Assembly (NCBI GenBank): GCA_021841795.1
Contig: JAKCDN010000014.1
Coordinates: forward strand, 1-17,575
Source: Acidobacteriota bacterium
GTDB lineage: Bacteria; Acidobacteriota; Terriglobia; Terriglobales; Acidobacteriaceae
Length of the DNA: 17,575 nt
Reading direction: 5' to 3'
Part shown: in pieces, positions 1,736-17,448 of the stretch
Numbering within the stretch: position 1 is the first letter of the stretch
Layout: every line of letters starts with the position of its first letter
Translations under genes and position numbers: made by a program
The notes under the pieces: generated by a model
The model's input: the letters and a program-made list of their open reading frames with translations, nothing else
Databases searched by the model: none
Told to the model about the DNA's origin: nothing

Positions 1736-1763
1736 TTGCCAATTCCGGAGATCGGAATATACT
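1736..1763 (+). promoter_or_regulatory. Predicted promoter of the hybrid regulator gene
   Basis: TTGCCA (1736-1741) and TATACT (1758-1763) form a -35/-10 pair with a 16-base spacer, about 36 bases upstream of the GTG start. The spacer is filled exactly by the inverted repeat at 1742-1758. A protein bound there would block RNA polymerase, which points to autorepression. The promoter match is read directly from the sequence; activity is inferred. Confidence 0.6.
1742..1758. promoter_or_regulatory. Putative operator 1, ATTCCG-N5-CGGAAT
   Basis: A perfect inverted repeat with 6-base arms ATTCCG and CGGAAT and spacer GAGAT lies between the -35 and -10 elements of the regulator's promoter. The same arms with the same 5-base spacing recur at 3003-3019 and 9574-9590. 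A 17-base two-fold symmetric site is the size expected for an HTH dimer. The neighbouring IclR-HTH/PBP1 protein is the obvious binder. Confidence 0.72.
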
Positions 1764-1798
1764 GTACCGCCTGAAGCTTGCAACCTTTGGAGATCAAC

Positions 1799-3040
1799 GT
1801 GGCACGACGTCAACAGGATAAGTTCTTGGAAGAACTGGAGCCGGATAGCGCTGAAACCAACGGCCGCAACAGCGACCGCAACGAATCGCAGACCGTTCTG
1901 CGCGCCTGCGAGGTGCTGAAAGCATTTCGGCATCTCGGCGAGGAATTGCCCCTCACCGCCGTCATGGAGCGCACAGCGCTGCCCAAGACGACCACCTTTC
2001 GGCTGCTGCGCACTCTTATCCATGGCGGCCTGGTCGAGCGCGTCAGCGCCGGCGTCTATCGCAACAGCTTCGGTCCTGTTACGGCGCGCCCTTTCCGCAT
2101 CGGTTTTGCCACCCAGGGCGACACCGAATTCGCTCGCGAGGTGACACGCAGCATGGTCACTGCGGCCGCGCGTGAACATGTGCAGCTCATCACCCTCAAC
2201 AATCGCTACAGCGCGCGCGAAGCCCTCCGCAACGCCGACGTGCTGATTCGCGAACGCGTCGACCTGGTGCTCGAATTTCAGACCTATGAGCGCGTCGCGC
2301 CCGTCATCGCCTCCAAATTTCTTGCCGCCAATGTGCCCGTCATCGCGATTGAGGTTCCCCATCCCGGGGCAACGTACTTCGGCGCCGACAACTACAAGGC
2401 CGGTCTCATCGGCGGCCGCGCCCTCGGCCGCTGGGCGCGCGAAAACTGGGAGGGCAAGGTCGATCAGCTCGTTCTCGTCGAGCTTCCTATCGCCGGATCT
2501 CTCCTCGAATTGCGCCTCTCCGGCCTCGTTGACGGCCTGCGCGCAGAACTGCCCAAAATCGTCGAAACCCCATTGATTCGCCTCAACGGACGCGGCAACT
2601 TCGAGCAGGTTCTCGATGTGCTGCGCAAATATCTGCGCCGCCGCGGGCCGCGGCGCACGCTCGTCGGCACGGTCAACGACATCTGCGCCCTGGCCGCGCT
2701 GCGCGCTTTCGAGGAGGCCGGCGCATCCCAGCAATGCGCGGTCATGGGGCAGAACGCGCTCCGCGAAGCGCGCTCTGAACTCCGTCGTCCAGGCACCCGC
2801 CTCGTGGGCTCGGTCGCTTATTTCCCTGAACGTTATGGCGATGAGCTTGTTCCTCTCGCCATCAACATTCTCCAGCAAAAACCCGCGCCCGCCGCCATCT
2901 TCGTCAAGCACCAGCTCCTCACGCCGCGCAATGTCGATCTCGTCTATCCTCTCGACGAAGCTCCGGCCGGAACCCCGCGCAAAACCCAGACCGGACTGGA
3001 TAATTCCGCCACGCGGAATCAGCGGGCCGTCGAAGTTTGA
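1799..3040 (+). CDS. Hybrid transcriptional regulator: IclR-type winged HTH fused to a LacI-like PBP1 sensor
   Basis: This 413-residue cytoplasmic DNA-binding regulator presumably senses a sugar. After a polar N-terminal tail, residues about 30-90 resemble an IclR winged helix (SQTVLRACEVLKAFRHL, then ALPKTTTFRLLRTLIHGGLV). From about residue 98 a type-1 periplasmic-binding-protein domain follows. It begins FRIGFATQGDTEFAREV and continues with VDLVLEF, NVPVIAIEVPHPGATYFGADNYKAGLIGG and TLVGTVNDICALAALRAFEEAG, the pattern of LacI/ribose-binding effector domains. Classical IclR proteins carry a GAF-like effector domain and classical LacI proteins a different HTH, so the combination is unusual. 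I chose the GTG at 1799 because GGAG (1789-1792) sits 6 bases upstream; a TTG at 1778 would add 7 residues. The operator in its own promoter suggests autoregulation. The last codons contain operator 2. Confidence 0.88.
   Translation: MARRQQDKFLEELEPDSAETNGRNSDRNESQTVLRACEVLKAFRHLGEELPLTAVMERTALPKTTTFRLLRTLIHGGLVERVSAGVYRNSFGPVTARPFRIGFATQGDTEFAREVTRSMVTAAAREHVQLITLNNRYSAREALRNADVLIRERVDLVLEFQTYERVAPVIASKFLAANVPVIAIEVPHPGATYFGADNYKAGLIGGRALGRWARENWEGKVDQLVLVELPIAGSLLELRLSGLVDGLRAELPKIVETPLIRLNGRGNFEQVLDVLRKYLRRRGPRRTLVGTVNDICALAALRAFEEAGASQQCAVMGQNALREARSELRRPGTRLVGSVAYFPERYGDELVPLAINILQQKPAPAAIFVKHQLLTPRNVDLVYPLDEAPAGTPRKTQTGLDNSATRNQRAVEV
3003..3019. promoter_or_regulatory. Putative operator 2, ATTCCG-N5-CGGAAT
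   Basis: A perfect copy of the operator-1 arms with spacer CCACG lies inside the last codons of the regulator gene, 19 bases before its stop and 74 bases before the GH127 start. It is upstream of the GH127/RLP/kinase operon. I see no convincing -10 hexamer in the register used at operator 1, so the promoter it controls is not located. Confidence 0.68.
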
Positions 3041-3093
3041 CCTTCGCTCCCCATGCGCCGCAACGTAATGTGCAACAGAGTCGTACTTTCCCT

Positions 3094-4881
3094 ATGAGCA
3101 ACCGGATCACAAGACGAGACTTCCTGGCCGGCGCGGCCGCCGCCGCACTCGCACCCACGGCGCGCGCCACCGCCACGCCTGCGGCTGCTGACGTCTTTAC
3201 TGAGTTTGATTATGACGCCGTACAGCTTACCGGCGGACCGCTCAAGCGCCAGTACGACCGCATGCACGCCGCTTACCTCGCGCTCGACAATGATCGTCTG
3301 CTCCGCGTCTATCGCGAACGCGCGGGCCTGCCGGCTCCCGGCGCGCCCATGGGCGGCTGGTACGGACATGACGGCTTCGTACCCGGGCACTCGCTCGGCC
3401 AGTACATCTCCGGCATCGCGCGCATCGGCCGCACCACCGGCGATCCTGCCTGCGCCGCCAAGGTTGACGCCCTGGTCGCTGGTTTTGCCGCAACGCTCGG
3501 CCCCAGCGACATGCCCTTTGCCGCGCCGAACGCTGAAACCCTCTGGCCCTGCTACATACTCGACAAACACCTCGCCGGACTGATGGATGCGTTCCACTTG
3601 AGCGGCGTCGCCTCCGCGCGCGATCTCGTGCCGCGCGTATTTCACGGAGCGCTGCCTTACATCCCGAAAAAAGGGCGCGACCGCGTCGGCAAGAAGAATC
3701 CGCCGTACGACGAGACCTATGTTCTGCCCGAGTCGCTCTTCCTCGCCTACGAGTTAACCGGCGACCGTGCGCTCTATGATCGCGCCATGGCCTATCTGCT
3801 GGATCGCGACTATTTCGACCCGCTTGCCGCGGGGCAGGATGTGCTGCCGGGCCGCCATGCTTACAGCCACGTCATTGCCCTCAGCTCCGCAGGCAAAGCA
3901 AGGCTGGTCCTCGGCGAAGTAAAGTATCTCCGCGCCATGCAGAATGCCTGGGATCTGCTCGCCACAACGCAGCAGTTCGCCACTGGCGGCTGGGGTCCGA
4001 ATGAAACCTTCATCGAGCCGCACAAGGGCCAACTCTATGACAGCCTGCGCTCCACCAACGACCACTTTGAGACTCCGTGCGGCAGCTACGCGGCCATCAA
4101 ACTGGCGCGCTATCTGCTATGCGCCACGGGCGATGCGCGCTACGGCGATGGCCTGGAGCGCGTCCTCTTCAACGGCATTCTCGCCGTCAAGGAACCGGAC
4201 GCTGATGGCGATTATCCCTACTATTCGACCTATGGCGCCGAAGCGCACAAGGTCTTCTATCCCAAAAAATGGCCTTGCTGCTCCGGCACCCTGGTCGAGG
4301 GTGTCGCAGACTATGTCAAAAACATCTACTTCCGCGCGCAGGATGGCGTAGCCGTGAATCTGTACGCGCCCTCACGCGTGCAGTGGATCGAGCGCGGCAT
4401 TCCCGTGCAGCTCTCGCAGCAAACGCACTTCCCGCTGGGCGAAGCTGTCGCCTTGCACGTGCAGTGCGCGGCGCCCGTCGACTTTGCGCTGCGCCTGCGG
4501 CTGCCGGAGTGGGCGCACGCCGCGCCCCAACTTCGCATCAACGGAAAGCCGGCTCGGGCCGATCGGCACGCCGGATTCGCCGTAGTGCGCCGGCGCTGGA
4601 CAAGCGGCGATACGCTCGCCATCACGTTGCCCATGCGCTTCCACGCCGCGCCGATCGACGATCTGCATCCTGAGTCGGTCGCGCTCATGCGCGGCCCGCT
4701 GGTCTACGTGGAACAGAATCCTGCCGGCAACAGTCCCGCGCACGCAAATCCTGCGGCTCTCGAACCTCGGCCCCGGACTCCAGGCGAGTTCTCCGCTCGC
4801 ACCGGCAATCAAACCCGGATCTACGTGCCGTTTTATTCCGTGCGCGGCGATGCCTACACAATGTATGCCCAACAAAGCTGA
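3094..4881 (+). CDS. Tat-exported GH127/DUF1680-family glycosidase (beta-L-arabinofuranosidase-like)
   Basis: This 595-residue protein belongs to the DUF1680 / GH127-GH146 group, cysteine-dependent retaining glycosidases acting on beta-L-arabinofuranosides. The N-terminus MSNRITRRDFLAGAAAAA with a following Ala-rich stretch is a twin-arginine signal, so the enzyme folds in the cytoplasm and is exported. Expected zinc/nucleophile residues are visible: FETPCGSYA (Glu326, Cys329) and KWPCCSGT (Cys395, Cys396; the first or second of these should be the nucleophile, by analogy). The glutamate and first cysteine are spaced E-x-x-C rather than the E-x-C I recall for HypBA1. The start at 3094 is chosen over a TTG at 3037 that overlaps the regulator stop. 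It is first in an operon with a RuBisCO-like protein (8 bases downstream) and a kinase. Related proteins are reported to cleave other furanosides and acid sugars, so the substrate may be apiose or aceric acid rather than arabinose. Confidence 0.88.
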   Translation: MSNRITRRDFLAGAAAAALAPTARATATPAAADVFTEFDYDAVQLTGGPLKRQYDRMHAAYLALDNDRLLRVYRERAGLPAPGAPMGGWYGHDGFVPGHSLGQYISGIARIGRTTGDPACAAKVDALVAGFAATLGPSDMPFAAPNAETLWPCYILDKHLAGLMDAFHLSGVASARDLVPRVFHGALPYIPKKGRDRVGKKNPPYDETYVLPESLFLAYELTGDRALYDRAMAYLLDRDYFDPLAAGQDVLPGRHAYSHVIALSSAGKARLVLGEVKYLRAMQNAWDLLATTQQFATGGWGPNETFIEPHKGQLYDSLRSTNDHFETPCGSYAAIKLARYLLCATGDARYGDGLERVLFNGILAVKEPDADGDYPYYSTYGAEAHKVFYPKKWPCCSGTLVEGVADYVKNIYFRAQDGVAVNLYAPSRVQWIERGIPVQLSQQTHFPLGEAVALHVQCAAPVDFALRLRLPEWAHAAPQLRINGKPARADRHAGFAVVRRRWTSGDTLAITLPMRFHAAPIDDLHPESVALMRGPLVYVEQNPAGNSPAHANPAALEPRPRTPGEFSARTGNQTRIYVPFYSVRGDAYTMYAQQS

Positions 4882-4889
4882 TACCACCG

Positions 4890-6179
4890 ATGACACTCGC
4901 AAACCATTGCACGGACCGCATCTTCGCGCGCTATTGGATTGAAACCGCGTTCCCCCTCGACGACGCCGCAGCCATCATGGCCGGCGAGCAGTCGACCGGA
5001 ACCTTCGTTCGTGTTCCCGGCGAAACCGACGAACTGCGCGAACGCTATGCCGCGCGCGTGGAGCGCATCGTCGAACTGGACAAGGTTGAGGCTCCGTCGC
5101 TCCCTGGATCAGGCCTGCCCAGGAAGCATGCCGGCCCCGTTGTACGCCGCGCGGCCGAAGTCACGCTCTCCTGGCCCATGGCCAACCTGGGACCGTCGCT
5201 GCCCAATCTGCTGGCCACTGTCGCAGGCAATCTCTTCGAGCTGAAGCCGTTCTCGGGACTCAAACTGCTCGATATCGCGCTCCCGCCGGCCTTTCTGTCG
5301 GCCTATCAGGGACCGCAGTTTGGCACGGAAGGAACGCGGCGTCTTACCGGCGTCTACGGCCGTCCTCTCATCGGCACCATCATCAAGCCCAGCGTCGGCA
5401 TGACCCCCGAGCAAACCGCGGCGCAGGTCAAAATCCTCGCCGAGGCCGGTGTCGACTTCATTAAGGATGACGAACTGCAGGCCGACGGACCGCATTGTCC
5501 CTTCGATCAACGTGTTCCCGCCGTGCTGCGCGTACTCAACGAATATGCCGACAAATACGGCAGGCGGCCCATGTACGCTGCCAACATCACCGGCGAAATC
5601 GACCAGATGCTGCGCCGCCACGATCTTGTCGTCGCCTCGGGCGGCATCTGCGTCATGGCCAGCGTGAACAGCATCGGCCTGCCCGCGATGACGGCCCTCC
5701 GCCGCCATGCGCAAGTCGCCATCCACGGCCATCGCAACGGTTGGGGCATGTTCAGCCGCTCGCACGCCACCGGCATGAGCTTCATTGCCTTCCAGAAGTT
5801 CTGGCGGCTTGCCGGCATCGACCACGTCCATGTCAACGGCCTGCGCAACAAGTTCTGCGAAGACGACGCGAGCGTCGTGGCCTCCGCGCGCGAGTGCCTT
5901 ACGCCCATGTTCCCTGCCCCGCACAAAGGCTGTGAGATCATGCCGGTCTTTTCTTCGGGACAGTCGGCAAGCCAGGCTCCGGATACCTACCGGGCCCTCG
6001 GCTCAATGGATCTGATCTTTGCCTGCGGCGGAGGCATCCTTGCCCATCCTGCCGGCCCCGCTGCCGGCGTGCGCAGTCTGCGCCAGGCGTGGCAGGCCGC
6101 CGCCGCCGGCATCTCCCTGGCGGAATACGCGCAGTCTCACGAGGAGCTCCGCGCCGCGCTGGAGGCATTTGCCGCGTGA
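4890..6179 (+). CDS. RuBisCO-like protein (probable 3-oxo-isoapionate-4-phosphate-type decarboxylase or transcarboxylase/hydrolase)
   Basis: This 429-residue RuBisCO large-chain fold is the length of form IV (RuBisCO-like) proteins. Compared with spinach numbering, the carbamylated lysine and metal ligands are intact in IKDDE (Lys192=K201, Asp194=D203, Glu195=E204). Also present are Glu33 (E60), Asn114 (N123), Lys166 (K175), His281-Arg282 (H294-R295), His314 (H327), Lys321 (K334) and Ser356 (S379). The second lysine of the KPK motif (K177) is Ser168 and T173 is Ile, so true CO2 fixation is unlikely. It is immediately followed, with a 4-base overlap, by a DUF1537 kinase. That pairing matches the published D-apionate pathways, where a kinase makes 3-oxo-isoapionate 4-phosphate and an RLP decarboxylates or hydrolyses it. 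Which reaction applies cannot be decided here. The ribosome site is weak, so coupling to the GH127 gene 8 bases upstream is likely. Confidence 0.9.
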   Translation: MTLANHCTDRIFARYWIETAFPLDDAAAIMAGEQSTGTFVRVPGETDELRERYAARVERIVELDKVEAPSLPGSGLPRKHAGPVVRRAAEVTLSWPMANLGPSLPNLLATVAGNLFELKPFSGLKLLDIALPPAFLSAYQGPQFGTEGTRRLTGVYGRPLIGTIIKPSVGMTPEQTAAQVKILAEAGVDFIKDDELQADGPHCPFDQRVPAVLRVLNEYADKYGRRPMYAANITGEIDQMLRRHDLVVASGGICVMASVNSIGLPAMTALRRHAQVAIHGHRNGWGMFSRSHATGMSFIAFQKFWRLAGIDHVHVNGLRNKFCEDDASVVASARECLTPMFPAPHKGCEIMPVFSSGQSASQAPDTYRALGSMDLIFACGGGILAHPAGPAAGVRSLRQAWQAAAAGISLAEYAQSHEELRAALEAFAA

Positions 6180-7471
6180 GCATGCATCTCACACCGCGCC
6201 TGCTTTACGCCTGGTATGGCGACGACTTCACCGGCTCCACCGATGTCCTGGAGACGCTGGCCGTTCACGGCGTCAAGGCGGTCCTCTTCACGCGTCCGCC
6301 GCATACGCGCGACCTGGCGTCTTTCTCCGACTGCCGCGCCGTTGGAGTCGCCGGTGAAAGCCGCAGCCGCGGCCCGCAGTGGATGAGCCGCAACCTCCCT
6401 GCGATCTTTCGCGCCATCCGGCGTCTTGGCGCGCCCATGAATCATTACAAGGTCTGCTCGACCTTCGACAGCTCGTCGCGCATCGGCAGCATCGGCCGCG
6501 CCATGGAGATTGGCCGCGAGATCTTTCGTTCCGGCCCGGTTCCGATCGTCGTCGGCGCCTCCCACCTCGGCCGCGCCGTGGTCTTCGGCAATCTCTTCGC
6601 CGCCGCTGACGGCGCCTGGCATCGCATCGATCGTCATCCCACCATGCGGCGGCATCCTGTTACTCCCATGGCAGAGGCTGACCTGCGTCTCCATCTTGCC
6701 CGGCAGACCGCGCTTTCCATCGGCCTCGTTGACCTGGCTGCATTTCAGTCCCGTACTGTGCGTGAACACTGGCTACAATACGTTCACGCCTGCACGGGCG
6801 CTGTCGTCTTCGACGGCTTTGCCGATCCTATGCTCGAAGAAACCGCGCGCGTTCTCTGCGAGCCCGCCCTGCAACGGCCGATCTTTGCCGTAGGCAGTTC
6901 CGGCCTCACACGGGGACTCTTGCATTACTGGCGCTCGGCCGGCATGGTCGGCGCCGCCTCGCCGCCGCCGCCCCCTCCGTCCGTCGATCGCATCCTCGTG
7001 TTGAGCGGAAGTTGCTCCCCCATAACCGCGCGGCAAATCCGCCGCGCCCGCCAGTTGGGCTTCGCCGCCTGGCGTATTCAGGGCCAGGGGCCGTGGACGC
7101 AAGTGGCCGAAAAAGCCGGCCGCGCGCTCGCCGCAGGGCGCAGCGTCGTCCTCTACACGGCGCTCGGGCCCCAGACTCCGGATGCCATGCACGGCAAAAA
7201 CTTCGGCGTCGCTCTCGGCCGGCTCCTGCATCAGCTCGTTCTTGCAACCGGTGTCCGCCGCATCCTCATCGCCGGGGGCGATACCGCAACCCACGCCGTC
7301 CGGCAACTCGGCCTCGATGCGCTCACATTCGCCGCGCCGCTCGTCTCCGGCGTTCCCCTCTGTCGTGCCGGCGCGAGCTCGCAGCTTGACGGCCTCGAGC
7401 TCGCTCTCAAAGGCGGACAGATGGGCTCTGACGATTTCTTCGTCAACGTGCGCAGCGGCCGCGGCTTTTAG
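6176..7471 (+). CDS. DUF1537 four-carbon acid sugar kinase family (3-oxo-isoapionate kinase-like)
   Basis: This 431-residue ATP-dependent kinase belongs to the family of OtnK, DtnK, DenK and OiaK, which phosphorylate short acid sugars. The N-terminal substrate domain opens with WYGDDFTGSTDVLE (Asp16, Asp17). The C-terminal nucleotide-binding domain has VLSGSCSPITARQ, the GGDT motif at residues 367-370 and KGGQMG at residues 412-417. I chose the GTG at 6176: it overlaps the RLP stop as GTGA and has GGAGG 10 bases upstream. An ATG at 6182 is the alternative, and longer forms only read through RLP codons. Tight coupling to an RLP favours an OiaK-like role (3-oxo-isoapionate to its 4-phosphate) over tetronate kinases, which usually sit with PdxA2 or a class II aldolase; neither is present here. 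The 3' end faces the MFS gene with only 15 bases between. Confidence 0.88.
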   Translation: MSMHLTPRLLYAWYGDDFTGSTDVLETLAVHGVKAVLFTRPPHTRDLASFSDCRAVGVAGESRSRGPQWMSRNLPAIFRAIRRLGAPMNHYKVCSTFDSSSRIGSIGRAMEIGREIFRSGPVPIVVGASHLGRAVVFGNLFAAADGAWHRIDRHPTMRRHPVTPMAEADLRLHLARQTALSIGLVDLAAFQSRTVREHWLQYVHACTGAVVFDGFADPMLEETARVLCEPALQRPIFAVGSSGLTRGLLHYWRSAGMVGAASPPPPPPSVDRILVLSGSCSPITARQIRRARQLGFAAWRIQGQGPWTQVAEKAGRALAAGRSVVLYTALGPQTPDAMHGKNFGVALGRLLHQLVLATGVRRILIAGGDTATHAVRQLGLDALTFAAPLVSGVPLCRAGASSQLDGLELALKGGQMGSDDFFVNVRSGRGF

Positions 7472-7486
7472 CCTTCCGCCCGGCCT

Positions 7487-8719
7487 TCATCCCGCGTCAA
7501 CGCTCTCCGTGCAGTCGATCCGCGTAAAAAGTGCGGCGCTTGCCAGCACCATTCCTGCGATGAACCACAGCGGCATGTTGTAGCTCCCGGTCAGGTGCAC
7601 CACATAGCCAAACAGCACCGTGCACAGAAAACCTCCCGCCTGACCCGCCGTATTCATCATCCCTGTCGCTGTCCCGCTTAGCCGGCCCCCAATCGCCAGG
7701 CACAGCGCCCACGCTGAAGGCAGCATCAGGTCCATCGCGCCAAATCCGGCGCTCGACAGCGCCACGACAGCCACCTTCCCGTGCACCAGGGCCATGGCCA
7801 TCAGCAGCAGTGCCGTTGCCGTTAGGCACGTCGCCGGAATCCAGCGCAGCGCGCGGCGCGCCCCCCAGCGAACCGTCAGGCGGTCTCCCAGTTGTCCTCC
7901 CGCCAGGTTCGCCGCCAGGCCCACAACAAACGGCAGCGACGCAAACAGCATCCCATCCAGCGAAAAACCGGCAGTATGCATCATCCAGGTGGGAAACCAG
8001 GAAAAGTAAAACCAGCTTCCACACCCATAGCAGCCGTAGGCAAGAACGATCAGCCACAGCGATCGCGAACGGAACAGTCGTCTCCACGGCACGGCGGTTG
8101 CGTGCGCCCCATACCCTTCGCCGATCTCCGCCAGCTCCGTGCTGGTCATCCCGGGATCGTCCTGCGGCCGGTTGCGAAACCGCAACCACCACACACCGGC
8201 CCAGGAAAACCCCGCCAGCGCCAGAAAACGGAAGACCATGCGCCACCCGAAGTAGTGCACCATGGGAACGATCACAACTGGCGCCAGCGCTCCGCCCAGC
8301 CGGCTTGCCGCCCACACCAGCCCCTGGCAGCGCGCGCGCTCCCGCATCGGAAACCAGCGCGCGATGACGCCGGCGATGTTCGGGTAGGCCCCGGCAGCCC
8401 CCAGTCCAAAAAAGAATCGCGACGCGCACAACTGCCAGAAGCTGCGCGCCCATCCCGTAAGCGCATTGAAACTGGACCACCACACCACGATGCGCGTCAT
8501 TTCACCGCGCTGTCCGCGCCGGTCGCCCATCGCCCCCGAAGGCACTTCGAAGACTCCGTTTGCCAGCACGTACGCGCTCAGGATCCAGCCCCATTGCTGC
8601 GGCTGAATCTTCAGATCGGCTTGGATTGCGGGCCCTGCAACCGCGATCGCAAGGCGGTCCAGAAACGTGAGGACTGAAAGCAGGCCGAGGAGCGCAAGCA
8701 CCCTGTAGCGCAACTTCAA
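7487..8719 (-). CDS. MFS transporter, anion:cation symporter (ACS) type
   Basis: This is a roughly 410-residue inner-membrane carrier with about 12 hydrophobic segments. Loop motifs are those of the ACS family (hexuronate, galactonate and glucarate carriers). TM1 carries FLDRLAIAVAGPAI, the TM2-3 loop carries GAMGDRRGQRG, and TM4 has RFFFGLGAAGAYPN followed by ARWFPMRERARCQG. The N-terminal half ends in a cytoplasmic loop with PQDDPGMTSTE. Such carriers import sugar acids with protons, which fits an acid-sugar pathway. Translation appears to start at TTG (8719), overlapping the stop of the racemase-family gene as TTGA, so the two are one operon. It converges on the kinase gene with a 15-base gap and no visible terminator hairpin. 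Confidence 0.9.
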   Translation of the reverse strand: MKLRYRVLALLGLLSVLTFLDRLAIAVAGPAIQADLKIQPQQWGWILSAYVLANGVFEVPSGAMGDRRGQRGEMTRIVVWWSSFNALTGWARSFWQLCASRFFFGLGAAGAYPNIAGVIARWFPMRERARCQGLVWAASRLGGALAPVVIVPMVHYFGWRMVFRFLALAGFSWAGVWWLRFRNRPQDDPGMTSTELAEIGEGYGAHATAVPWRRLFRSRSLWLIVLAYGCYGCGSWFYFSWFPTWMMHTAGFSLDGMLFASLPFVVGLAANLAGGQLGDRLTVRWGARRALRWIPATCLTATALLLMAMALVHGKVAVVALSSAGFGAMDLMLPSAWALCLAIGGRLSGTATGMMNTAGQAGGFLCTVLFGYVVHLTGSYNMPLWFIAGMVLASAALFTRIDCTESVDAG

Positions 8720-9414
8720 GCGCCGACCCTCGCCGGCGTCGGCAGCTTGAGCGCATTGCGCGCGCTCAACACGGCGAGTTCGGGGCTGGAGATCACGGGC
8801 GCATGCACCACGTCGGCCGCAAGCGTAGTCAGAACCCGCGCCATCGACGCTTGTGCCAGCACAATCAGGTCCACTCCCTTCAGATCCTCCACCAGCGCCT
8901 TCGTCAACAGCCGGTCGTGCGTCGCCGTGTCCCCGGCGAGCACTGCGGGAAACGCATCCTTACACAGGCACTCTACCAGTTCTACCTTACGTCCCGCCTT
9001 GGCAGCCTTCTCATGTAACAGCGCCGTGGTTGGGTCCAGCGTTGTCTGCAGCGTGGCCAGCACGCCGATGGTGCTGGCCTGCCGCACCGCCTTCTCGGCC
9101 ATGGCTTCGTCGATGCGCAGCACCGGAACTTCAAAAAGCTGCTGCGCCAGCGTTACCCCGGGCCCGATTGAAGAGCACGTCACCAGCACCGCATTCGCGC
9201 CTGCCGCCTCCGCCGAGGCAATTTGCTCGATCAGCCGCCTGATCGTCACCTTGCGCAGGCTGCCGGCCTTCACCGTGTCCTGGATCAGGCTTTCATCCAC
9301 CATGTGGAACACTTTGGCCTCGGGAATGTGATGGTGACACAGCTTGGTAAAACCAGGCGCAAGCGTAGGACTCGTATGAATCAGTGCAAGGGTCGGTGCG
9401 GTTTGAGTAGACAA
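8716..9414 (-). CDS. Asp/Glu/hydantoin racemase-family enzyme with only one of the two catalytic cysteines
   Basis: This 232-residue cytoplasmic enzyme has the Asp/Glu racemase fold (two Rossmann-like halves, each normally supplying a catalytic cysteine). The first is present in AVLVTCSSIGPGV (Cys80). At the second site, where family members have a cysteine in an LGC-type motif, this protein reads IVLAQASM (Gln188-Ala189-Ser190). Racemases need both residues. One-cysteine relatives such as arylmalonate decarboxylase do decarboxylation, and isomerase relatives are also known, so racemisation is unlikely here. The start is a TTG at 9414 preceded by GAAAGG; no in-frame ATG lies before His37. It overlaps the MFS gene by 4 bases. 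It diverges from the GH42 operon, with operator 3 in between. The reaction is unknown; a sugar-acid step linked to the RLP pathway is inferred from context only. Confidence 0.85.
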   Translation of the reverse strand: MSTQTAPTLALIHTSPTLAPGFTKLCHHHIPEAKVFHMVDESLIQDTVKAGSLRKVTIRRLIEQIASAEAAGANAVLVTCSSIGPGVTLAQQLFEVPVLRIDEAMAEKAVRQASTIGVLATLQTTLDPTTALLHEKAAKAGRKVELVECLCKDAFPAVLAGDTATHDRLLTKALVEDLKGVDLIVLAQASMARVLTTLAADVVHAPVISSPELAVLSARNALKLPTPARVGA

Positions 9415-9646
9415 CTTTTAGCCTTTCCATGCGTCGGGCTCAGCGCTCCATCGAGTCCCCACGGGCATCATAGCGATACCGCGGCCCGTGCTCCGAGCCG
9501 GAGCTTGATTTGCTCCTCAAGTTAGCGCAACTACATCGCCCGCTGCGAAGCGTAACAGCCTCGCCGGTTTCTGATTCCGGTAAGCGGAATGCAATCGGCC
9601 GCTCATCCTGCTCCTCGCCAATGCCTTTGTGATACAAAAACCTCGC
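9415..9646. promoter_or_regulatory. Divergent intergenic control region (racemase operon / GH42 operon)
   Basis: These 232 non-coding bases separate the two divergent operons. They hold operator 3 (9574-9590) and a separate perfect inverted repeat GCTCCG-N3-CGGAGC (9490-9504) of unknown role. A good minus-strand -10 hexamer, TATGAT (9472-9467), lacks a convincing -35. A short symmetric element TTTGT-GAT-ACAAA lies just before the GH42 start. The functions are inferred. Confidence 0.45.
9574..9590. promoter_or_regulatory. Putative operator 3, ATTCCG-N5-CGGAAT
   Basis: This is the third perfect copy of the repeat, with spacer GTAAG, 56 bases before the GH42 start. Its last T could be the first base of a TGCAAT -10-like hexamer (9590-9595). 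That is the register seen at operator 1, though the -35 position (TTTCTG) is poor. It could repress the GH42 operon and, being in a divergent region, also the racemase/MFS operon. Confidence 0.7.
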
Positions 9647-11755
9647 ATGAGAAAACCGCCAGCAACCGGTCCAGCCGCCTCCAAAGACAGCCGCAGGTTC
9701 ATCTCCCTGGCCGTCCTCTTCGCCATGCTCTTCTGCGCGCTCGGCCAATCCTCCGCGCAGGCTGCGCCTACGGCTCCGCCGCCGTGGCTCGGCGCTGCCT
9801 GGTACCCCGAACAATGGCCCGAATCGCGCTGGGATGCCGACCTGCAGCTCATGCAGAACGCCCACCTCGACGTCGTGCGCGTGGGTGAGTTTGCCTGGAG
9901 CGCATTGGAGCCCGCCCAGGGCCGGTACAACCTGGATTGGCTCGCCCGCGCAGTCCGGCTCGCGGAAAAGCACCACATCGCGGTCGTCATCGGCACCCCC
10001 ACTGACGCCCCGCCCGCCTGGCTTACCAGACTCCATCCCGGCACCTTGCGCGTCGACGCTGCGGGCCGCACTGCGGAACACGGCAGCCGTCGCCAGTTCA
10101 ACTATGCAAGCCCCGAATATCGCGGATTCTGCGCCCAAATCGCCGCGCAGCTCGCCCGGCGCTTTGGGCACGACCCCAACGTCATCGGCTGGCAGATCGG
10201 CAATGAGTACACGGACGAGTCCTTCGACCCGGCAACGCGCCGCCGGTTTCAGCTTTGGCTTCAACGCAAATACAAAACCCTCGACACCTTGAATCGCGCC
10301 TGGGTCACTGCTTATTGGAGCCAGACCTACGATCGCTGGAATGAAATTCCCCTTCCCGCATCCGCCGGCAATCCCGGGCTGCTCCTCGATCACCGCCGTT
10401 TCGTCAGCGATACCTGGCGCGATTTCCAGCAGGTGCAGATCGACGCCATCCGCAGATTCGCCGACCCGCGCCAGTTCATTACCACCAACATCGGCGGCCT
10501 GGGCTGGAGTGACAACTGGGATCACTATGAGATCACCCGCCCGCTCGATCTCGCGGCCTGGGACGACTACGTGGGTGAAGGTCATCTGCATGTGGACCGC
10601 AACGCCGCCATGCACGACTTCGTGCGCGGGTGGAAGCGTCGGAACTTCTGGGTCATGGAAACCCAGCCCGGCTCGGTCAACTGGGCTCCCGTCAACACCA
10701 CGCTCGATCGTGGCGAAACCCGCGCCATGGCCTGGCAGGCCATCGGTCATGGCGCCGATGCTGTTCTTTACTGGCAATGGCGCGACGCGCTGAACGGCCA
10801 GGAGCAGTATCACGGTGCCATTGTCGGGCCCGATGGCTCGCCGCTGCCCATCTACTCTGAGATCGGCCGCATCGGCGGCGAGTTTCAGCGCGCCGCTCCT
10901 GCGCTGCACGGCACGCAACCCGCCGCCCAGGTTGCGCTGCTCGTCACCTACGACAGCCGCTGGGCCATCGACTTTCAGCCGCACAGCAAGTACTACGACC
11001 AGCTCGAGCTTCTCCTCGACTACTATCGCCCGCTGCGGGATGAGCAATTGACCGTAGACATCGTCAGCGCCGACGCCCCGCTCGACGGCTACAAACTGAT
11101 CCTGGCGCCAAGCCTGAATGTCATCTCCCAGAGCCTCGCCGCGCATCTGCTCGCCTATGTGCAGCAGGGAGGCCAACTGCTTCTTGGCCCCCGCTCCGGC
11201 ATGAAAGACGAGCACAATGCCCTCAATGTTCAACGCCAGCCCGGCCCTCTGGCCGCGCCCCTCGGCGGTCGCGTCGAGCAGTATTACGCGCTCGATCATC
11301 CCCTGCCTGTCGCAGGCTCGCTCGGCGCCGGCAGCGCATCGCTCTGGGCCGAGCAGCTCTCCGCGGCCGCGCCCGATGTGCAGGTTCTCCTGCGCTATGG
11401 CCAGTCGAACGGCTGGCTCGATAACCAGCCGGCCATGATGACTCGCCGCGTTGGCAAAGGCAGCATCACCTATCTCGGCGCGGTGCTCGATCCGGAACTG
11501 ATGCGCCAGGTAACCGCATGGGCCATCGCGCGCGCGCAGGTTCATGCGGAGTTTCCCGGCGTGCCTGCCGGTGTCGAAGTCTGCCGCCGCGCCGGTGCGG
11601 ACCACATGGCCTTTATCCTCATCAACCACGGTGCCGTGGCGGCGCACGTCGCTCTGCCTGGCCCAATGAGCGACGTCCTGCACGGCGATCGTATCGTGAC
11701 CGCCGTCGATTTATCCCCACAAGGCGTCGACGTGCTGGCGACCGGCAAACCCTGA
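9647..11755 (+). CDS. Secreted GH42 beta-galactosidase
   Basis: This 702-residue retaining glycosidase of clan GH-A cleaves terminal beta-galactosides. A Sec signal is visible (basic start, then SLAVLFAMLFCALG, likely cleavage after SAQA). The TIM barrel opens with LGAAWYPEQWPESRWDADLQ, typical of GH42. The acid/base is Glu187 in IGNEYTDESF and the nucleophile is Glu338 in WVMETQPGSVNWAPVN. A trimerisation-like domain follows (VALLVTYDSRWAI, YYRPL, then a segment like a glutamine-amidotransferase fold), and a short beta domain ends the protein, as in the family. The ATG at 9647 is taken; an in-frame GTG 6 codons upstream is possible, and neither has a strong ribosome site. The next gene starts 39 bases after the stop, so it is probably co-transcribed. 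Most GH42 enzymes are intracellular; the signal peptide implies periplasmic or external action. Confidence 0.92.
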   Translation: MRKPPATGPAASKDSRRFISLAVLFAMLFCALGQSSAQAAPTAPPPWLGAAWYPEQWPESRWDADLQLMQNAHLDVVRVGEFAWSALEPAQGRYNLDWLARAVRLAEKHHIAVVIGTPTDAPPAWLTRLHPGTLRVDAAGRTAEHGSRRQFNYASPEYRGFCAQIAAQLARRFGHDPNVIGWQIGNEYTDESFDPATRRRFQLWLQRKYKTLDTLNRAWVTAYWSQTYDRWNEIPLPASAGNPGLLLDHRRFVSDTWRDFQQVQIDAIRRFADPRQFITTNIGGLGWSDNWDHYEITRPLDLAAWDDYVGEGHLHVDRNAAMHDFVRGWKRRNFWVMETQPGSVNWAPVNTTLDRGETRAMAWQAIGHGADAVLYWQWRDALNGQEQYHGAIVGPDGSPLPIYSEIGRIGGEFQRAAPALHGTQPAAQVALLVTYDSRWAIDFQPHSKYYDQLELLLDYYRPLRDEQLTVDIVSADAPLDGYKLILAPSLNVISQSLAAHLLAYVQQGGQLLLGPRSGMKDEHNALNVQRQPGPLAAPLGGRVEQYYALDHPLPVAGSLGAGSASLWAEQLSAAAPDVQVLLRYGQSNGWLDNQPAMMTRRVGKGSITYLGAVLDPELMRQVTAWAIARAQVHAEFPGVPAGVEVCRRAGADHMAFILINHGAVAAHVALPGPMSDVLHGDRIVTAVDLSPQGVDVLATGKP

Positions 11756-11794: not shown

Positions 11795-12886
11795 ATGAAT
11801 ACACCGTTGACCCGCCGCCGATTCCTCAATTCGCTCGGCGCCTCGCTTGCCGGGCTGCCGCTGCTGTCAGGTCCAGGCCTCTGCGCCGAAGCCTTCACCA
11901 GCGCCCAGGTCGCTCCCTTTCGCACCCCGTACAAATACGGCAAGCTCGTGCTCTCCGCATCGAACGATCCCGGCGCCTTCGACGCGAAATCTGTCGACGA
12001 CCCCTTCGTCTTCCTCCACAACGGGGCATTTCATATGCTCTACATCGGATTCGACGGCATCGGCTATCAGACCGGGCTCGCAAAATCCTCTGACCTCGTC
12101 CACTGGGAGCGCCTGGCCTGCGTAGCCCGCCGCGATCCCAGCTCAAAGTACACCCGCTATAACATCGCGCTCAGTTGCCTGCTCCGCGAACACGGTCTCA
12201 CTTCGAAGGGACGCCTCAAGAAAGTCCATGGCCGTTTTCTCGGCGCATGGAACGCCTATCCCGGCGCGGGTTACGAGGCTGGCGCCGCCGTCATTGGACT
12301 CGCCTGGAGCGACGATCTGCTGCACTGGGAGCTCACTGAGCCCATTCTCTTCCCTGCCGACGGCGCGCCCTGGGAGCATGGCGGCCTTTACCGGCCCAAC
12401 CTCATTGAGGTGAACGGCATCTTCTACCTCTACTACAACGCCAAAACCGATCCTCTCCCCCGGAGCAAGGGCGGGGGATGGCGCGAGCAGAGCGGCGTCG
12501 CCACCTCGCGCGACCTGAAGCACTGGACGCGTTTCGCGGGCAACCCCATCCTGCCCAATGGCGGACCCGATTCCTGGGATGCGCGTTTCGCCAGCAATCC
12601 GTTTGTTGTAAATCACAAACATCTTTTTGGAATGTATTACTTCGGCCTCGACCGTCACGGCATCGCGCGCGAGCTCCTCGCCCTCGGCCGCGATCCCTGC
12701 CACTTCGAAAAGGTGCATGAAGTCATGCTTGACCGCGGCTCGCCCGGTTCCGTCGACGAAGACTATGCCCACAAACCGTGCGTGATCTTCCACCACGGCG
12801 CGCTCTACCACTTCTATTGCGCCGTCTCCGGAAAATGGCCCCATGACAGCCGCGGCATCTCCGTCGCGCGTTCCACGCCCTGGTAA
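11795..12886 (+). CDS. Tat-exported five-bladed beta-propeller glycosidase-like protein (GH43/GH32/GH130-like)
   Basis: This 363-residue protein starts MNTPLTRRRFLNSLGASLAG, a twin-arginine signal. The mature part repeats the propeller blade pattern of GH43/GH32/GH62/GH117/GH130-type enzymes: VDDPFVFLHNGAFHMLYIGFD near residue 67, LAKSSDLVHWER, LAWSDDLLHWELTEPIL, LYRPNLIEVNGIFYLYYNAKT, VATSRDLKHWTRFAGNPIL and a last HKPCVIFHHGALYHFYCAVSG. Asp68 or Asp69 in the DDP motif is the likely first acid, by analogy. I cannot assign a CAZy family. GH137, a five-bladed arabinofuranosidase of rhamnogalacturonan II breakdown, is one possibility worth testing. The start has GGAG 8 bases upstream. It follows the GH42 gene by 39 bases and shares operator 3 if they are one operon. 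Confidence 0.85.
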   Translation: MNTPLTRRRFLNSLGASLAGLPLLSGPGLCAEAFTSAQVAPFRTPYKYGKLVLSASNDPGAFDAKSVDDPFVFLHNGAFHMLYIGFDGIGYQTGLAKSSDLVHWERLACVARRDPSSKYTRYNIALSCLLREHGLTSKGRLKKVHGRFLGAWNAYPGAGYEAGAAVIGLAWSDDLLHWELTEPILFPADGAPWEHGGLYRPNLIEVNGIFYLYYNAKTDPLPRSKGGGWREQSGVATSRDLKHWTRFAGNPILPNGGPDSWDARFASNPFVVNHKHLFGMYYFGLDRHGIARELLALGRDPCHFEKVHEVMLDRGSPGSVDEDYAHKPCVIFHHGALYHFYCAVSGKWPHDSRGISVARSTPW

Positions 12887-12971: not shown

Positions 12972-15752
12972 CTACCGCGCAGGATTCTCCGCGTGCACCG
13001 CGAATCTTCCCGAGCCAACCGTCAGCACAAGCCGTGCGCCCTCGATCTGCGCATTGAGCACTCCCGCAGCTCGATTCGCCGCAACTCCATCGACCGTCGC
13101 CATTCCTGCCGACGAAGTATCAATCTCGATCGTCGCCGTCGCATTTGCCGGCACCGCAAACGTGTAATCCGTTGCTGCCGCGCCGCGATGCCACTCGCTG
13201 GTGATCGGCCCCAGCGCGGACAGGTAGGTAGCCCGCGCCCGGTTCACCCCGCCCACGACTGCCGGATGCAGAGTCAATCGCCGCGCCCCGACTTTCGCCA
13301 TATCCACATTGATTCCACCCAACCCGCGATAAAACCACTCCTCCGCGCTGCCCAGCATGAAGTGATCCTGCGAGTGCCCGCCGTCCCACGCCTCCGTCAA
13401 CGCGGTCGCGCCCTGCGCAAGAATGTAGCCGTAGCTCGGCGCGTCCGTGCGCTCCAGCATATCCAGCAGCACATCGGAGCGCCCGCCGTTGAGCAGGGCT
13501 TCCACCTCGTAGTGGTACCCCACCTCCCCGCATGTGGTGTGATTCTGATGCGCGCGGATGTCTTTCACCAGCGCTTCGAGCACTGCCGCCCGTTCGCCCT
13601 CGGGAACGATCCCCAGCGCCAGCGCAATGGCCTGCGCCGTCTGGCTGCCTTGATCGTAGCGCCGCTGCCCGGCATCGTAGAACCTCCGGTTGAACGCATC
13701 GCGCACGCGCGCCGCCTGTTCCGCATATGCCGCGCGATCTTCGCTCTTGCCCAGCACTGCCGCGGACTCTTCCAGCGCCTTCAGATCCTGGTAGTAAATT
13801 GCCGTCCCCGTCACACCGGCCGTCGTCAACTGCGAGATCCCCGGTGCCCCCGGACCGATATCGAACCAGTCTCCAAGTCCGTAATCGACAATCCCGTCGT
13901 GTGTCCGCGTGCCAAGATACCGCGCGTAAGCGCGCATCACGTCGTACTGCGCGGCCAGAAACCCGCGGTCGCCGGTGCGCTCGTACACCTGCCACGGCGC
14001 CAGCACCGCCGCGCTGCCCCACTCCGGCGAGTCGTTGAAGATGGCGTACTGGGGCTCGAATACCACGTACTGCGGCGCAATCGTCGGCACCATCCCCGCA
14101 TCCGGTCCGCTCCTGCGCTGCACATCGGCGATGTTGCGCGCTGTGGCCGCATAGAGCCCGGAAAAATCAAAGTCGTACAGCAGCGACGGCGCCATCAGGT
14201 GCGTCTGCTCCAGCCATCCCAGCTTCTCGCGATGAGGGCAATCGGTAAACAGGCTCATGGCGTTGTTTTCCATCGCCCGCAGTATCAGCCTGTGAATGCG
14301 GTTCAGCATCGCGTCCGACGAGTCAAACTCACCCACCGGCTCTGAAGTCGAATGCACCGCCTCGCCGCGCAGGCTCGCCAGGCGCACCGCGCTCTCCGCC
14401 GCGCCCTCCACCTGCACATAGCGGAATCCATAGTAGCTGAACCGCGGATGCCAGCTTTCAATGCGCCCCCGCGTGCCGCGCAGCGTGTATGAAAACCACT
14501 GCGGGCTTCCCGAGCTTCGCTGCCAAACCAGACCATTCTTGTCGAGCAGCTCGCCGGGAATCAGCTTCACCGTCGCCCCCGCTTTGCCGGAGACGGCAAT
14601 CTCCGGCCAGCCCGCAAAGTTCTGCCCCAGGTCGTAAACCGTCACGCCAGGCCGCGGATGCGTCACCGCCACCGGCGTATAAACATGCATCACCCGGATC
14701 GGCGGCGCTATCTCCGGCATCAGCTCCCCGCCCGGGCCATCCACCTCGGCAGCCTCGTGCCATGCCCTGTCGTCAAAGCCCGCCCGGTCCCATCCTTGCG
14801 GCGCCAGGCGCGCATCGTAATCCTCCCCTCCGTACGTCGACGAGAACACAATCGGGCCCGGAGCCGTCTTCCAGGATCCGTCGCTCAGAATCTCCGCCGA
14901 ACTGCCGTCGCTCATCTCGATGTGGAGCTGCACCGTACACTTCAACTCCCCGAAGCTGCCCACAAACTTGGTAAAACGATGGGGCGTCTTCAGCACGCGA
15001 TACATCCCGTTGCCCAGCATCACGCCCAGCGCGTTTGGCCCCGCATGCAGCAGCGATGTCACGTCGTACGCGTCGTAATATACCGTCTTGCGATAGTCGC
15101 TCCACCCCGGGGTCAGCTCATCGTCCCCCACTTTACGGCCGTTCAGCCGCAGCTCATCCTGTCCAAGGCCTGAGGCGTACAGCAGCGCCCGCGTCACGCC
15201 GTGCGACAACGTGAAGGTCTTGCGAAACAGCGGCAGCGGCTCGTGATCCACCGCGTCCACCGGATGCGCCGCTATCCAGCCGGCCCGCCACACGGGAGCT
15301 TCAGTCCAGCGCCCCGCATCGCTCCAGCCGCTCCCATGGTGCTGTTCGTCCCACACCTCCACCTGCCACCGGTATGTGCCACCCGCCTGCAGTGCCGGCC
15401 CCATATAGGCAACACCGGAGGTTGCCGCGCTCGACACCACCCCGCTGTCCCATAGGATCTTCCGCAATGGCCTTGAGCTCCCTGCGTCCGCCATCACTTG
15501 AATGCGGTACGCAGACTGGCTCACGCCATGAATGGCTGGCGAAGCCGCCATCAGGCGCCATGAGAACTCCGGATGCGCGTCTGCGACCGCCGCCGGCTGT
15601 CTCCAGTTGTTGCAGCGCAAATCGAACGGCTGCTTCAAGTGGGATTCGCTCGCCGCGGTTCCGGCGGCCATCGCATGGCCCGCCACCCCAAGAAGCAGGA
15701 CGGCGCACAGTAAACTGCGCTTGCGCAATCGGGAAAATCCCGGAAATTTCAT
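12972..15752 (-). CDS. Secreted GH78 alpha-L-rhamnosidase
   Basis: This inverting glycosidase of about 926 residues releases terminal alpha-L-rhamnose. The start MKFPGFSRLRKRSLLCAVLLLG and cleavage near AMA-A form a Sec signal. The mature protein opens with the usual GH78 Ig-like domain (PFDLRCNNWRQPAAVADAHPEFSWRL, shown here in part). Two beta-sandwich domains follow (ALLYASGLGQDELRLNGRKV), then the (alpha/alpha)6 catalytic domain. TDCPHREKLGWLEQ holds the likely general acid Glu509. ALTEAWDGGHSQDHFMLGSA holds the likely base Glu787, followed by EWFYRGLGGI. A C-terminal beta domain ends it. The reading frame is open far upstream, to 16148, but that stretch lies antisense to the fucosidase; the signal peptide fixes the start at 15752 or possibly 15764. 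It is divergent from the fucosidase, with 85 bases between, where I found no copy of the ATTCCG operator. Confidence 0.92.
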   Translation of the reverse strand: MKFPGFSRLRKRSLLCAVLLLGVAGHAMAAGTAASESHLKQPFDLRCNNWRQPAAVADAHPEFSWRLMAASPAIHGVSQSAYRIQVMADAGSSRPLRKILWDSGVVSSAATSGVAYMGPALQAGGTYRWQVEVWDEQHHGSGWSDAGRWTEAPVWRAGWIAAHPVDAVDHEPLPLFRKTFTLSHGVTRALLYASGLGQDELRLNGRKVGDDELTPGWSDYRKTVYYDAYDVTSLLHAGPNALGVMLGNGMYRVLKTPHRFTKFVGSFGELKCTVQLHIEMSDGSSAEILSDGSWKTAPGPIVFSSTYGGEDYDARLAPQGWDRAGFDDRAWHEAAEVDGPGGELMPEIAPPIRVMHVYTPVAVTHPRPGVTVYDLGQNFAGWPEIAVSGKAGATVKLIPGELLDKNGLVWQRSSGSPQWFSYTLRGTRGRIESWHPRFSYYGFRYVQVEGAAESAVRLASLRGEAVHSTSEPVGEFDSSDAMLNRIHRLILRAMENNAMSLFTDCPHREKLGWLEQTHLMAPSLLYDFDFSGLYAATARNIADVQRRSGPDAGMVPTIAPQYVVFEPQYAIFNDSPEWGSAAVLAPWQVYERTGDRGFLAAQYDVMRAYARYLGTRTHDGIVDYGLGDWFDIGPGAPGISQLTTAGVTGTAIYYQDLKALEESAAVLGKSEDRAAYAEQAARVRDAFNRRFYDAGQRRYDQGSQTAQAIALALGIVPEGERAAVLEALVKDIRAHQNHTTCGEVGYHYEVEALLNGGRSDVLLDMLERTDAPSYGYILAQGATALTEAWDGGHSQDHFMLGSAEEWFYRGLGGINVDMAKVGARRLTLHPAVVGGVNRARATYLSALGPITSEWHRGAAATDYTFAVPANATATIEIDTSSAGMATVDGVAANRAAGVLNAQIEGARLVLTVGSGRFAVHAENPAR

Positions 15753-15837
15753 GATCGAATGCATCAGCCCCGTGATACAGCACCCGGGCTTCACAACGCA
15801 ATCCTCAAATGTCACGGCATCTGCTAGCTTGTATGGC

Positions 15838-17448
15838 ATGAATCGCAACCGCTGCGCACACCGCGCGCTACTCGTCCTTGCAGCAGCCGTCATCGCCCTT
15901 GCCGCGGGCCCCGCCGTTGCGCAGCAAAAGTCCGCAAATGAACAGCGGCAGCTTGCTCGCGTCGATGCTGCTGCACAGACCGGCCCCTTTCGTCCCGCCT
16001 GGGATTCGCTCGCCGGATATCGCGCCCCCGATTGGTTTCGCGACGCCAAGTTCGGCATCTTCATCCACTGGGGCGTGTATTCCGTTCCGGCATTCGGAAA
16101 CGAATGGTATTCGCGCAACATGTATGTCGAGGGCAGCGCAGCTTTCAAGCACCACCTCGCAACCTACGGCCCCCAGTCCAAATTCGGCTACAAGGATTTC
16201 ATCCCCTTGTTCCGTGCCGAGCGCTTCGACCCCAATGCCTGGCTTGATCTTTTCGTTGCCGCAGGCGCCCGTTACGTTGTCCCCGTAGCCGAGCACTGTG
16301 ACGGCTTCCCCATGTACGACTCCAGACTCACCGATTGGGACGCCGCCAGGATGGGGCCCCGGCGTGACATCGTCGGCGAACTTGAAGCCGCAACCCGCCG
16401 CCACGGCCTCCGCTTCGGCGTCTCCTCGCATCGCGCCGAACACTGGTGGTGGTACGACGGCGGAATGAAGTTCGACTCCGACGTCCGTGATCCCCGCTAC
16501 GCCGGCCTCTACGGACCCGCAGAGCCCATGGCCCTGCCCGGCGAAAACACCTCGAAGGAGCCGGACCCCGACCACCTCGAGCGCTGGCTGCCGCCCAACA
16601 AGGCATTCCTCGACGACTGGCTCGCCCGCAGCTCCGAGCTCGTCACCATGTACCACCCCGATTTCCTCTACTTCGACTGGTGGATCGGGCAGCCCGCCTT
16701 TCAGCCCTATCTCCAACGCTTCGCCGCCTACTATTACGATCAGGCCGCAAGCCGCCATCAGGGCGTCGTGCTCACCTACAAGGGCTACGATTTCCCTGAG
16801 AACGCAGCCACCCTCGACATTGAGCGCGGAAAACTCGACACGCTCCGCCTGCTCCCTTGGCAGACGGATACATCGGTCAGCATTCATTCCTGGGGCTACG
16901 CCGACAACGACCAGTACCGCAGCGCAAAATCTCTCATCGACGAACTGGTCGACGTCGTCAGCAAAAACGGTAACCTGCTGCTCAATGTTGGCCCCCGCTC
17001 CGACGGCACCATTCCCGATCAGGCTCGCGCCATCCTGCTCCAGATGGGCGCATGGCTCAAAACCAACGGCGAGGCGATCTACGGCTCGCGGCCGTGGCTC
17101 GTCTACGGCGAAGGTCCAACCAAGGTCACCAGCTCTTCCAAGCACTCCGACGAACAGCAGTTCACTGCCGAAGATATTCGCTTCACCACCCGCAGCGGCG
17201 CCCTCTACGCCATCGCCCTGGGCTGGCCGTCAAGCGGCGATCTGCTCATTCGCTCGCTCGCCGCCGGGCTCCCTTACCTCGGCGACCCGGTTTGCGGGGT
17301 AAAGCTGCTGGGCTCCAGCCAGCCGCTCTCCTGGCATCAGGAGGCCGACGGCCTGCACATCGCGCTTCCCGCTCAACCTCCAGATGAGCCCGCCTGGACG
17401 TTCCGAATAGTGGAATGGCAAGGCCGCACCGGCCATTGCGGCAACTGA
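15838..17448 (+). CDS. Secreted GH29 alpha-L-fucosidase
   Basis: This 536-residue retaining glycosidase removes terminal alpha-L-fucose. The signal peptide MNRNRCAHRALLVLAAAVIALA is likely cut after AVA. GH29 hallmarks follow: WFRDAKFGIFIHWGVYSVPAFGNEW, AGARYVVPVAEHCDGFPMYDS, then YFDWWIG with the expected nucleophile Asp280. LLLNVGPRSDGTIPDQA closes the barrel, followed by GEAIYGSRPW and a C-terminal beta domain, as in the family. The ATG at 15838 fits the signal peptide; the frame is open back to 15532, but that part is antisense to the rhamnosidase. The gene is divergent from GH78, forming a two-enzyme deoxysugar-removal pair. An imperfect copy of the operator repeat lies near its 3' end (17400-17416). 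Confidence 0.92.
   Translation: MNRNRCAHRALLVLAAAVIALAAGPAVAQQKSANEQRQLARVDAAAQTGPFRPAWDSLAGYRAPDWFRDAKFGIFIHWGVYSVPAFGNEWYSRNMYVEGSAAFKHHLATYGPQSKFGYKDFIPLFRAERFDPNAWLDLFVAAGARYVVPVAEHCDGFPMYDSRLTDWDAARMGPRRDIVGELEAATRRHGLRFGVSSHRAEHWWWYDGGMKFDSDVRDPRYAGLYGPAEPMALPGENTSKEPDPDHLERWLPPNKAFLDDWLARSSELVTMYHPDFLYFDWWIGQPAFQPYLQRFAAYYYDQAASRHQGVVLTYKGYDFPENAATLDIERGKLDTLRLLPWQTDTSVSIHSWGYADNDQYRSAKSLIDELVDVVSKNGNLLLNVGPRSDGTIPDQARAILLQMGAWLKTNGEAIYGSRPWLVYGEGPTKVTSSSKHSDEQQFTAEDIRFTTRSGALYAIALGWPSSGDLLIRSLAAGLPYLGDPVCGVKLLGSSQPLSWHQEADGLHIALPAQPPDEPAWTFRIVEWQGRTGHCGN
17400..17416. promoter_or_regulatory. Degenerate operator-like repeat GTTCCG-N5-TGGAAT
   Basis: Each arm differs by one base from the ATTCCG/CGGAAT operator, with the same 5-base spacing. 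It lies inside the last codons of the fucosidase, much as operator 2 lies in the last codons of the regulator. If real, it would control a gene beyond the right edge. No clear promoter hexamers flank it. Confidence 0.3.

Follow-up and report, generated by a model that had tools for sequence, protein, structure and literature searches.

Which protein reads three matching palindromes in an acidobacterial carbohydrate locus, and with what effect? In the 17,575-nucleotide stretch analysed here (the window; positions 1 to 17,575 of contig JAKCDN010000014.1, from a member of the Acidobacteriaceae), three perfect copies of ATTCCG-N5-CGGAAT were identified, and an earlier sequence-only reading had proposed that they define a local regulon of the adjacent regulator gene. 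From comparisons across the order, we consider it probable that the palindrome is the operator of this regulator, a hybrid of an IclR-type helix-turn-helix (HTH) and a PBP1-type sugar domain, which would repress its own gene from site 1 and activate, from sites 2 and 3, the units encoding a GH127-type glycosidase, a RuBisCO-like protein (RLP) and a kinase, and an Asp/Glu racemase-family protein with an MFS transporter. The first part of this proposal, that the adjacent regulator owns the operator, is very probably correct.

1742..1758, no strand: operator 1, ATTCCGGAGATCGGAAT, within the promoter of the regulator gene (perfect motif)
3003..3019, no strand: operator 2, ATTCCGCCACGCGGAAT, before GH127 and within the regulator gene's variable 3' end (perfect motif; orthologues)
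9574..9590, no strand: operator 3, ATTCCGGTAAGCGGAAT, between racemase-MFS and GH42 (perfect motif; orthologues)

Rescanning the window reproduced all three copies at the positions first claimed (1742-1758, 3003-3019 and 9574-9590), and a scan of the whole draft genome (2.85 Mb in 380 contigs, 71% complete) identified exactly three perfect copies, all inside the window, with none of the outside scatter that the sequence-only reading had named as a warning sign. Across 200 dinucleotide-preserving shuffles of the window, perfect matches averaged 0.01, with a largest value of 1 and none equal to 3; this is about ten times the roughly 0.001 copies previously expected, although three copies remain far from chance. 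With up to three mismatches the window was mildly enriched (13 matches against a mean of 7.7, 13 being reached in 9 of 200 shuffles). Two-mismatch copies occur at 135 places in the genome, compared with 33 for the reversed pattern; the looser pattern is therefore common, and only near-perfect copies are informative.

Of 298 genomes of the order, 156 contain relatives of the regulator (E <= 1e-20), and 22 of these carry one at 70% identity or more, here termed a close regulator. From named records 65 loci were collected, and a close set comprised 28 loci (at least 60% identity, 486 kb); L001-L003 and the repeat contigs L004-L012, L014, L016, L018 and L019 were excluded from counts. The close set contained 20 perfect and 57 one-mismatch sites, compared with means of 0.02 and 0.96 (largest 1 and 9) for 179 re-ordered versions of the arms on the same loci. 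Perfect copies in these loci occurred at a spacer of 5 only, with zero at spacers of 0-4 or 6-11. The 33 loci of more distant regulators held 0 perfect and 4 one-mismatch sites, against 0.03 and 1.37 expected. Upstream of the regulator itself, a copy with at most one mismatch was present in 26 of 36 close relatives, the window's own included, and in 0 of 41 distant relatives (the upstream and helix counts omit L037, L055 and L097, with short upstream regions, and L094, L096 and L098, below 40% identity). All three sites are found again at matching positions in orthologous clusters. Arms and spacing are constant there, while the letters of the spacers and flanks differ across loci, so that the earlier claim of conserved arms with variable spacers held, and the refuting outcome named with it, a lack of conservation in orthologous promoters, was not observed. 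Perfect copies were found in 17 of the 22 genomes with a close regulator (36 copies in all); among the matches listed, comprising 15 copies in eight such genomes, 11 are no more than 10 kb from the regulator.

1799..3040, plus strand: regulator, IclR-type HTH and PBP1-type sugar domain (Pfam HTH_IclR 6.7e-14, Peripla_BP_4 5.1e-16)

Judged by its domain matches, the regulator seems to combine a LacI-type sensor with an IclR-type DNA-reading part. Its start was placed at GTG 1799, after GGAG (the longest frame begins at TTG 1778), giving 413 residues, unlike the approximately 250 of IclR-family members. The HTH matches PF09339 (HTH_IclR; 6.7e-14, 51.8 bits against a cut-off of 22) and is the sole HTH among Pfam matches at E <= 1e-3, which include neither a LacI-type HTH nor the C-terminal IclR effector domain (PF01614). 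The region where that effector domain would sit instead matches Peripla_BP_4 and, at up to 3.1e-08, solved sugar-binding proteins; because the effector domain is replaced, this is not a canonical IclR-family member. The regulator family comprises 2,428 proteins at E <= 1e-40 among 7,999 candidates scored, and all of the 120 relatives listed have PF09339 and PF13407, many being named 'ribose transport system substrate-binding protein'. In open-licence PMC papers we found no description of such IclR-HTH/PBP hybrids. The regulator frame at L036:2744-3970, in a draft genome, has one in-frame stop.

The letters of the operator follow the recognition helix of the hybrid. A de novo search for gapped palindromes upstream of the regulators (at most one mismatch) recovered ATTCCG-N5 in 22 of 27 members of subfamily A1, TTCCGC-N3 in 7 of 9 of A2 and TTTCGC-N3 in 9 of 13 of B1, compared with at most 2 in one shuffled set for each subfamily. 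We then grouped regulators by helix, adding 80 more upstream regions and using a 7-3-7 frame with up to two mismatches, identical upstream regions being counted once. PKTT helices were associated with ATTCCGC (21/27), x[KR]TT with GTTCCGC (7/10), PKTM with ATTTCGC (10/14), RPT with ATTTCAC (11/14) and HKAT with GTCTCGC (11/20); for the xRTI, xKG[ML] and HKATASR groups the operator search was weak or empty. Half-site position 4 was C in 37 and T in 4 regulators with a [KR]TT helix, versus 3 C and 68 T without one (145 regulators, of which 13 were ambiguous and 20 had no site).

Gene co-occurrence points the same way. Of 298 genomes, 21 contain the RLP gene (E <= 1e-100), and 20 of these belong to the 22 genomes with a close regulator; in the remaining two of the 22, G220 and G088, no RLP match was found. 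G278 (91% complete) is an RLP genome without a close regulator, in which the racemase, MFS, kinase, RLP, GH127 and propeller genes lie together, and this cluster contains no site with at most one mismatch, only a single two-mismatch copy inside the MFS gene. Conversely, in G093, G044 and G178 the cluster is on a different contig from the regulator and yet carries sites at the promoter spacing described below, perfect before RLP in G093 and with one mismatch before GH127 in G044 and G178. The earlier suggestion that the adjacent protein is the natural binder is thus supported, at the level of sequence, by several observations: the motif accompanies close hybrids, its letters follow their helix, the RLP gene and the close regulator largely share genomes, G278 lacks both close regulator and site, and the unlinked clusters carry sites.

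We identified two promoter geometries around these sites, based on the following predicted elements.

1736..1741, plus strand: predicted -35 box TTGCCA, abutting operator 1 (sequence; orthologous sites)
1760..1765, plus strand: predicted -10 box TACTGT (TANNNT), 1 bp after operator 1 (orthologous sites)
3066..3071, plus strand: TAATGT, predicted -10 box for GH127-RLP-kinase (46 bp after operator 2)
9519..9524, minus strand: TAACTT, predicted -10 box for racemase-MFS (49 bp from operator 3)

Site 1 lies 41 bp before the regulator start. Among the 22 site-1 orthologues listed (in all such lists, sites with at most one mismatch), TTGCCA directly adjoins the operator in 12 and TANNNT follows it by 1 bp in 17; with both in place, the operator therefore spans about -30 to -14. 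TATACT at 1758-1763 is an alternative -10. At sites 2 and 3, 26 of 30 directions have TANNNT 45-49 bp after the operator, every other 5-bp bin holding 0-2, which places the centre of the operator at about -67 to -70. This register is seen again in A2 loci (13 of 54 site-directions against 1.2 expected) and in the RPT subfamily, which has a different operator (9/30 against 1.3); B1 gives 4/16 against 0.6, on small numbers, and B2, with 1/8, is uninformative. In 37 promoters, picked for being in register and leaving out L039 of the site-2 list, we found no consensus -35, four single positions reaching half between -32 and the box. A fixed 45-49 bp without a consensus -35 fits activation better than repression, and taken together the geometries suggest that the regulator represses itself from site 1 and activates from sites 2 and 3.

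In the mechanism that we propose, the hybrid would bind the operator as a dimer, each half-site contacted by one recognition helix. A dimer bound at site 1 would occupy the gap between -35 and -10 and repress transcription of the regulator itself. When bound at sites 2 and 3, with its centre about 67-70 bp before the start point, the dimer would aid RNA polymerase where a consensus -35 is absent, activating GH127-RLP-kinase and racemase-MFS; control would presumably be set by the sugar bound in the PBP1 domain, perhaps a branched or pectin-derived one.

The alternative that survives best keeps the same operator and regulator and makes the latter a plain LacI-like repressor released by its sugar, sites 2 and 3 serving to loop DNA or to hinder polymerase. 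Site 1 does occupy a classic repressor position, and PBP1 sensors of the LacI kind are usually found in repressors; however, sites 2 and 3 keep their fixed distance before the -10 in three promoters and in other subfamilies, and their promoters lack the consensus -35, which better suits activation, so that we regard a plain repressor as unlikely. It is improbable, to a clearly greater degree, that the operator belongs to another protein, such as a canonical IclR-family regulator encoded elsewhere, with the hybrid a bystander. The motif is of a general IclR group-1 type, and the window's own genome encodes a canonical IclR protein next to a one-mismatch copy, which also weighs against our reading; yet the motif accompanies close hybrids and is absent with distant ones, its letters track the hybrid's own helix, and the G278 cluster without the hybrid is also without the site. 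Chance palindromes or a dispersed repeat, for which the low background of perfect copies in genomes without a close regulator might be cited, can be rejected with near certainty given the 0.01 copies per shuffled window, the re-ordered-arm controls, the lack of a perfect copy elsewhere in the draft genome, and arms and spacing that stay constant in orthologous promoters while spacers and flanks vary.

Further observations count against the hybrid acting as self-repressor and activator through this operator. Of the 276 genomes without a close regulator, 104 also contain perfect copies (about 140 copies), and the background is therefore about one copy per two genomes. The one-mismatch site upstream of the regulator is missing in 10 of 36 close relatives, L020, L022 and L047 having three-mismatch or unlike sites only. 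At the one-mismatch level, L046, L087, L015 and L055 lack site 2, and site 3 is lost or strongly degenerate in L043, L045, L046 and L087. The sites of G155 and G008 are weak, and the perfect site before the G093 racemase is out of register, as are others in the G093, G044 and G178 loci. A -10 match consists of three fixed bases only. The link between helix and operator follows clades, is uncorrected for descent and reflects mostly one split of the tree, and the SKTTVYR group (18 members) has no clear operator (score 10, shuffles 8). Only the SRTTAFR group is a candidate for an independent case. Its protein L075 groups with L070, apart from the close clade, but half-sites were mixed in 3 of 4 members, which gives partial support, the case for full convergence being weak.

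The genes predicted to be controlled from sites 2 and 3 are as follows, with the doubtful candidates last.

3094..4881, plus strand: GH127-type glycosidase with a twin-arginine-like leader (Pfam GH127 catalytic 6.6e-46)
4890..6179, plus strand: RuBisCO-like protein (nearest NCBIfam model OiaX, below cut-off)
6182..7471, plus strand: DUF1537-type four-carbon acid sugar kinase (nearest NCBIfam model OiaK, below cut-off)
8716..9414, minus strand: Asp/Glu racemase-family protein, first gene of the racemase-MFS unit (Pfam 4.1e-20)
7487..8719, minus strand: MFS transporter (Pfam MFS_1 3.2e-48)
9629..11755, plus strand: GH42 beta-galactosidase, doubtful target
11795..12886, plus strand: GH43-like propeller protein after GH42, doubtful target

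Each site had been described as lying just upstream of a gene. Site 2 does precede GH127, by 75 bp (ATG 3094), but it is within the last codons of the regulator reading frame, which ends at 3040; in the 16 loci listed, it is present at the same place with at most one mismatch. Site 3 had been placed upstream of GH42/propeller, divergent from racemase/MFS. The racemase/MFS side fits, with a -10 in the family's register in 7 of 7 orthologous sites, whereas on the opposite side this was seen in 3 of 7, where the downstream gene is GH29, not GH42, and neither the window nor L034 has an in-register -10 on the GH42 side. Site 3 thus fits the racemase/MFS promoter, and GH42 and the propeller gene are doubtful targets. 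The MFS match at L036:8455-10519, in a draft genome, is split in two by about 0.9 kb.

The substrate is likely to be a branched sugar resembling apiose, or else a side chain of pectin, because the nearest models are OiaX, OiaK and, for GH127, aceric acid hydrolase (best NCBIfam model, under its curated cut-off). OiaX and OiaK of the D-apionate pathway are the best NCBIfam matches of the RLP and kinase, with the difference that both proteins fall under the curated equivalog cut-off of 700 bits: the RLP scores 447.6 bits against OiaX (3-oxo-isoapionate-4-phosphate decarboxylase, NF042437), and the kinase 420.3 bits against OiaK (3-oxo-isoapionate kinase, NF042436). The kinase start is placed at ATG 6182, and searches were run on 6179-7471. 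In the literature searched, we found nothing direct on the apiose/RLP pathway or its regulator.

Known systems account for part of this arrangement. Operators of IclR-family group 1, subgroup WTT-11-AAW, read WTTYCRYW3RYGRAAW (Suvorova and Gelfand 2021, PMC8222616), and the window operator matches them in its arms, the 11-base gap between outer triplets and its odd length. The phyla table of that source is without Acidobacteria, and the proteins it treats are of about 250 aa with their own effector domain, whereas the regulator here has a PBP1 domain. Its Table 1 gives ATTCC-N7(5)-GGAAT for GenR of Corynebacterium glutamicum, also of the IclR family, which shares the half-sites and, for the N7 form, the spacing, but serves an aromatic-acid pathway (PMC8222616). 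The spacer ends of 69 sites here lean to Y and W, a further likeness to the WTT-11-AAW type. IclR-family factors control their own gene and one or two adjacent operons; the sites here are positioned at the regulator's own gene and at adjacent operons, which the regulator may control. A PBP1-type sugar sensor joined to an HTH is shared with LacI/GalR regulators and with AraR of Bacillus subtilis, which has a GntR-type HTH on a LacI-type sensor; here, in contrast, HTH and operator are of IclR type. GenR is not known to have a PBP1 sensor. The operator class is therefore known (IclR group 1), and the combination of sensor and HTH, the two geometries and the subfamily letters are new. Compared with the sequence-only reading, the analysis adds the opposite geometries, the doubt over GH42, the position of site 2 within a gene and the published operator type.

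Taken more broadly, we see an even chance that a large family of sugar sensors of Acidobacteriota, often annotated as ribose transport substrate-binding proteins, consists of hybrid transcription factors, with an IclR-type HTH on PBP1 and, in each subfamily, a readable variant of one IclR-type operator, in which geometry alone would set the sign of control (within the -35/-10 gap, self-repression; about 67-70 bp upstream, activation), this branch running an RLP-dependent branched-sugar pathway. The three palindromes become a testable regulon with an unusual pairing of sensor and HTH. Rules for the operators could connect many carbohydrate clusters in soil Acidobacteriota with a sensor, and each of the two geometries carries a prediction on whether a promoter is repressed or activated. 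The link to an OiaX-like RLP offers a handle on the sugar pathway.

We additionally considered other candidate targets. For a transketolase split into two adjacent genes (2-1668), divergent from the regulator, site 1 has no -10 in register on that side; relatives of the split transketolase in L034 are followed by a Gfo/Idh/MocA-type dehydrogenase. A GH78/GH29 pair was rejected as part of the window regulon, 15640-15860 containing nothing better than a three-mismatch match, as were two-mismatch copies at 16084 and 17400, within the GH29 reading frame and lacking an in-register -10. The five one-mismatch copies that the window's own genome has outside the window, four of them within reading frames of at least 100 aa, have a -10 in neither register and were likewise rejected. 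One copy of this kind (L179, G000:C53:2000-7500) lies upstream of an outer-membrane barrel gene, in neither register, and adjoins the canonical IclR regulator (HTH and IclR_C) and a divergent apiosidase-like glycosidase. In relatives, in-register sites were observed 93 bp before a DUF5060 glycosidase-like gene at L051:2937 (by Pfam) and L052:5485 (by position only). Operators of the A2 clade are paired, 76-77 bp apart (L051:11119/11196, L053:3559/3636, L063:9873/9949), and those of L051 and L053 lie near outer-membrane barrel genes.

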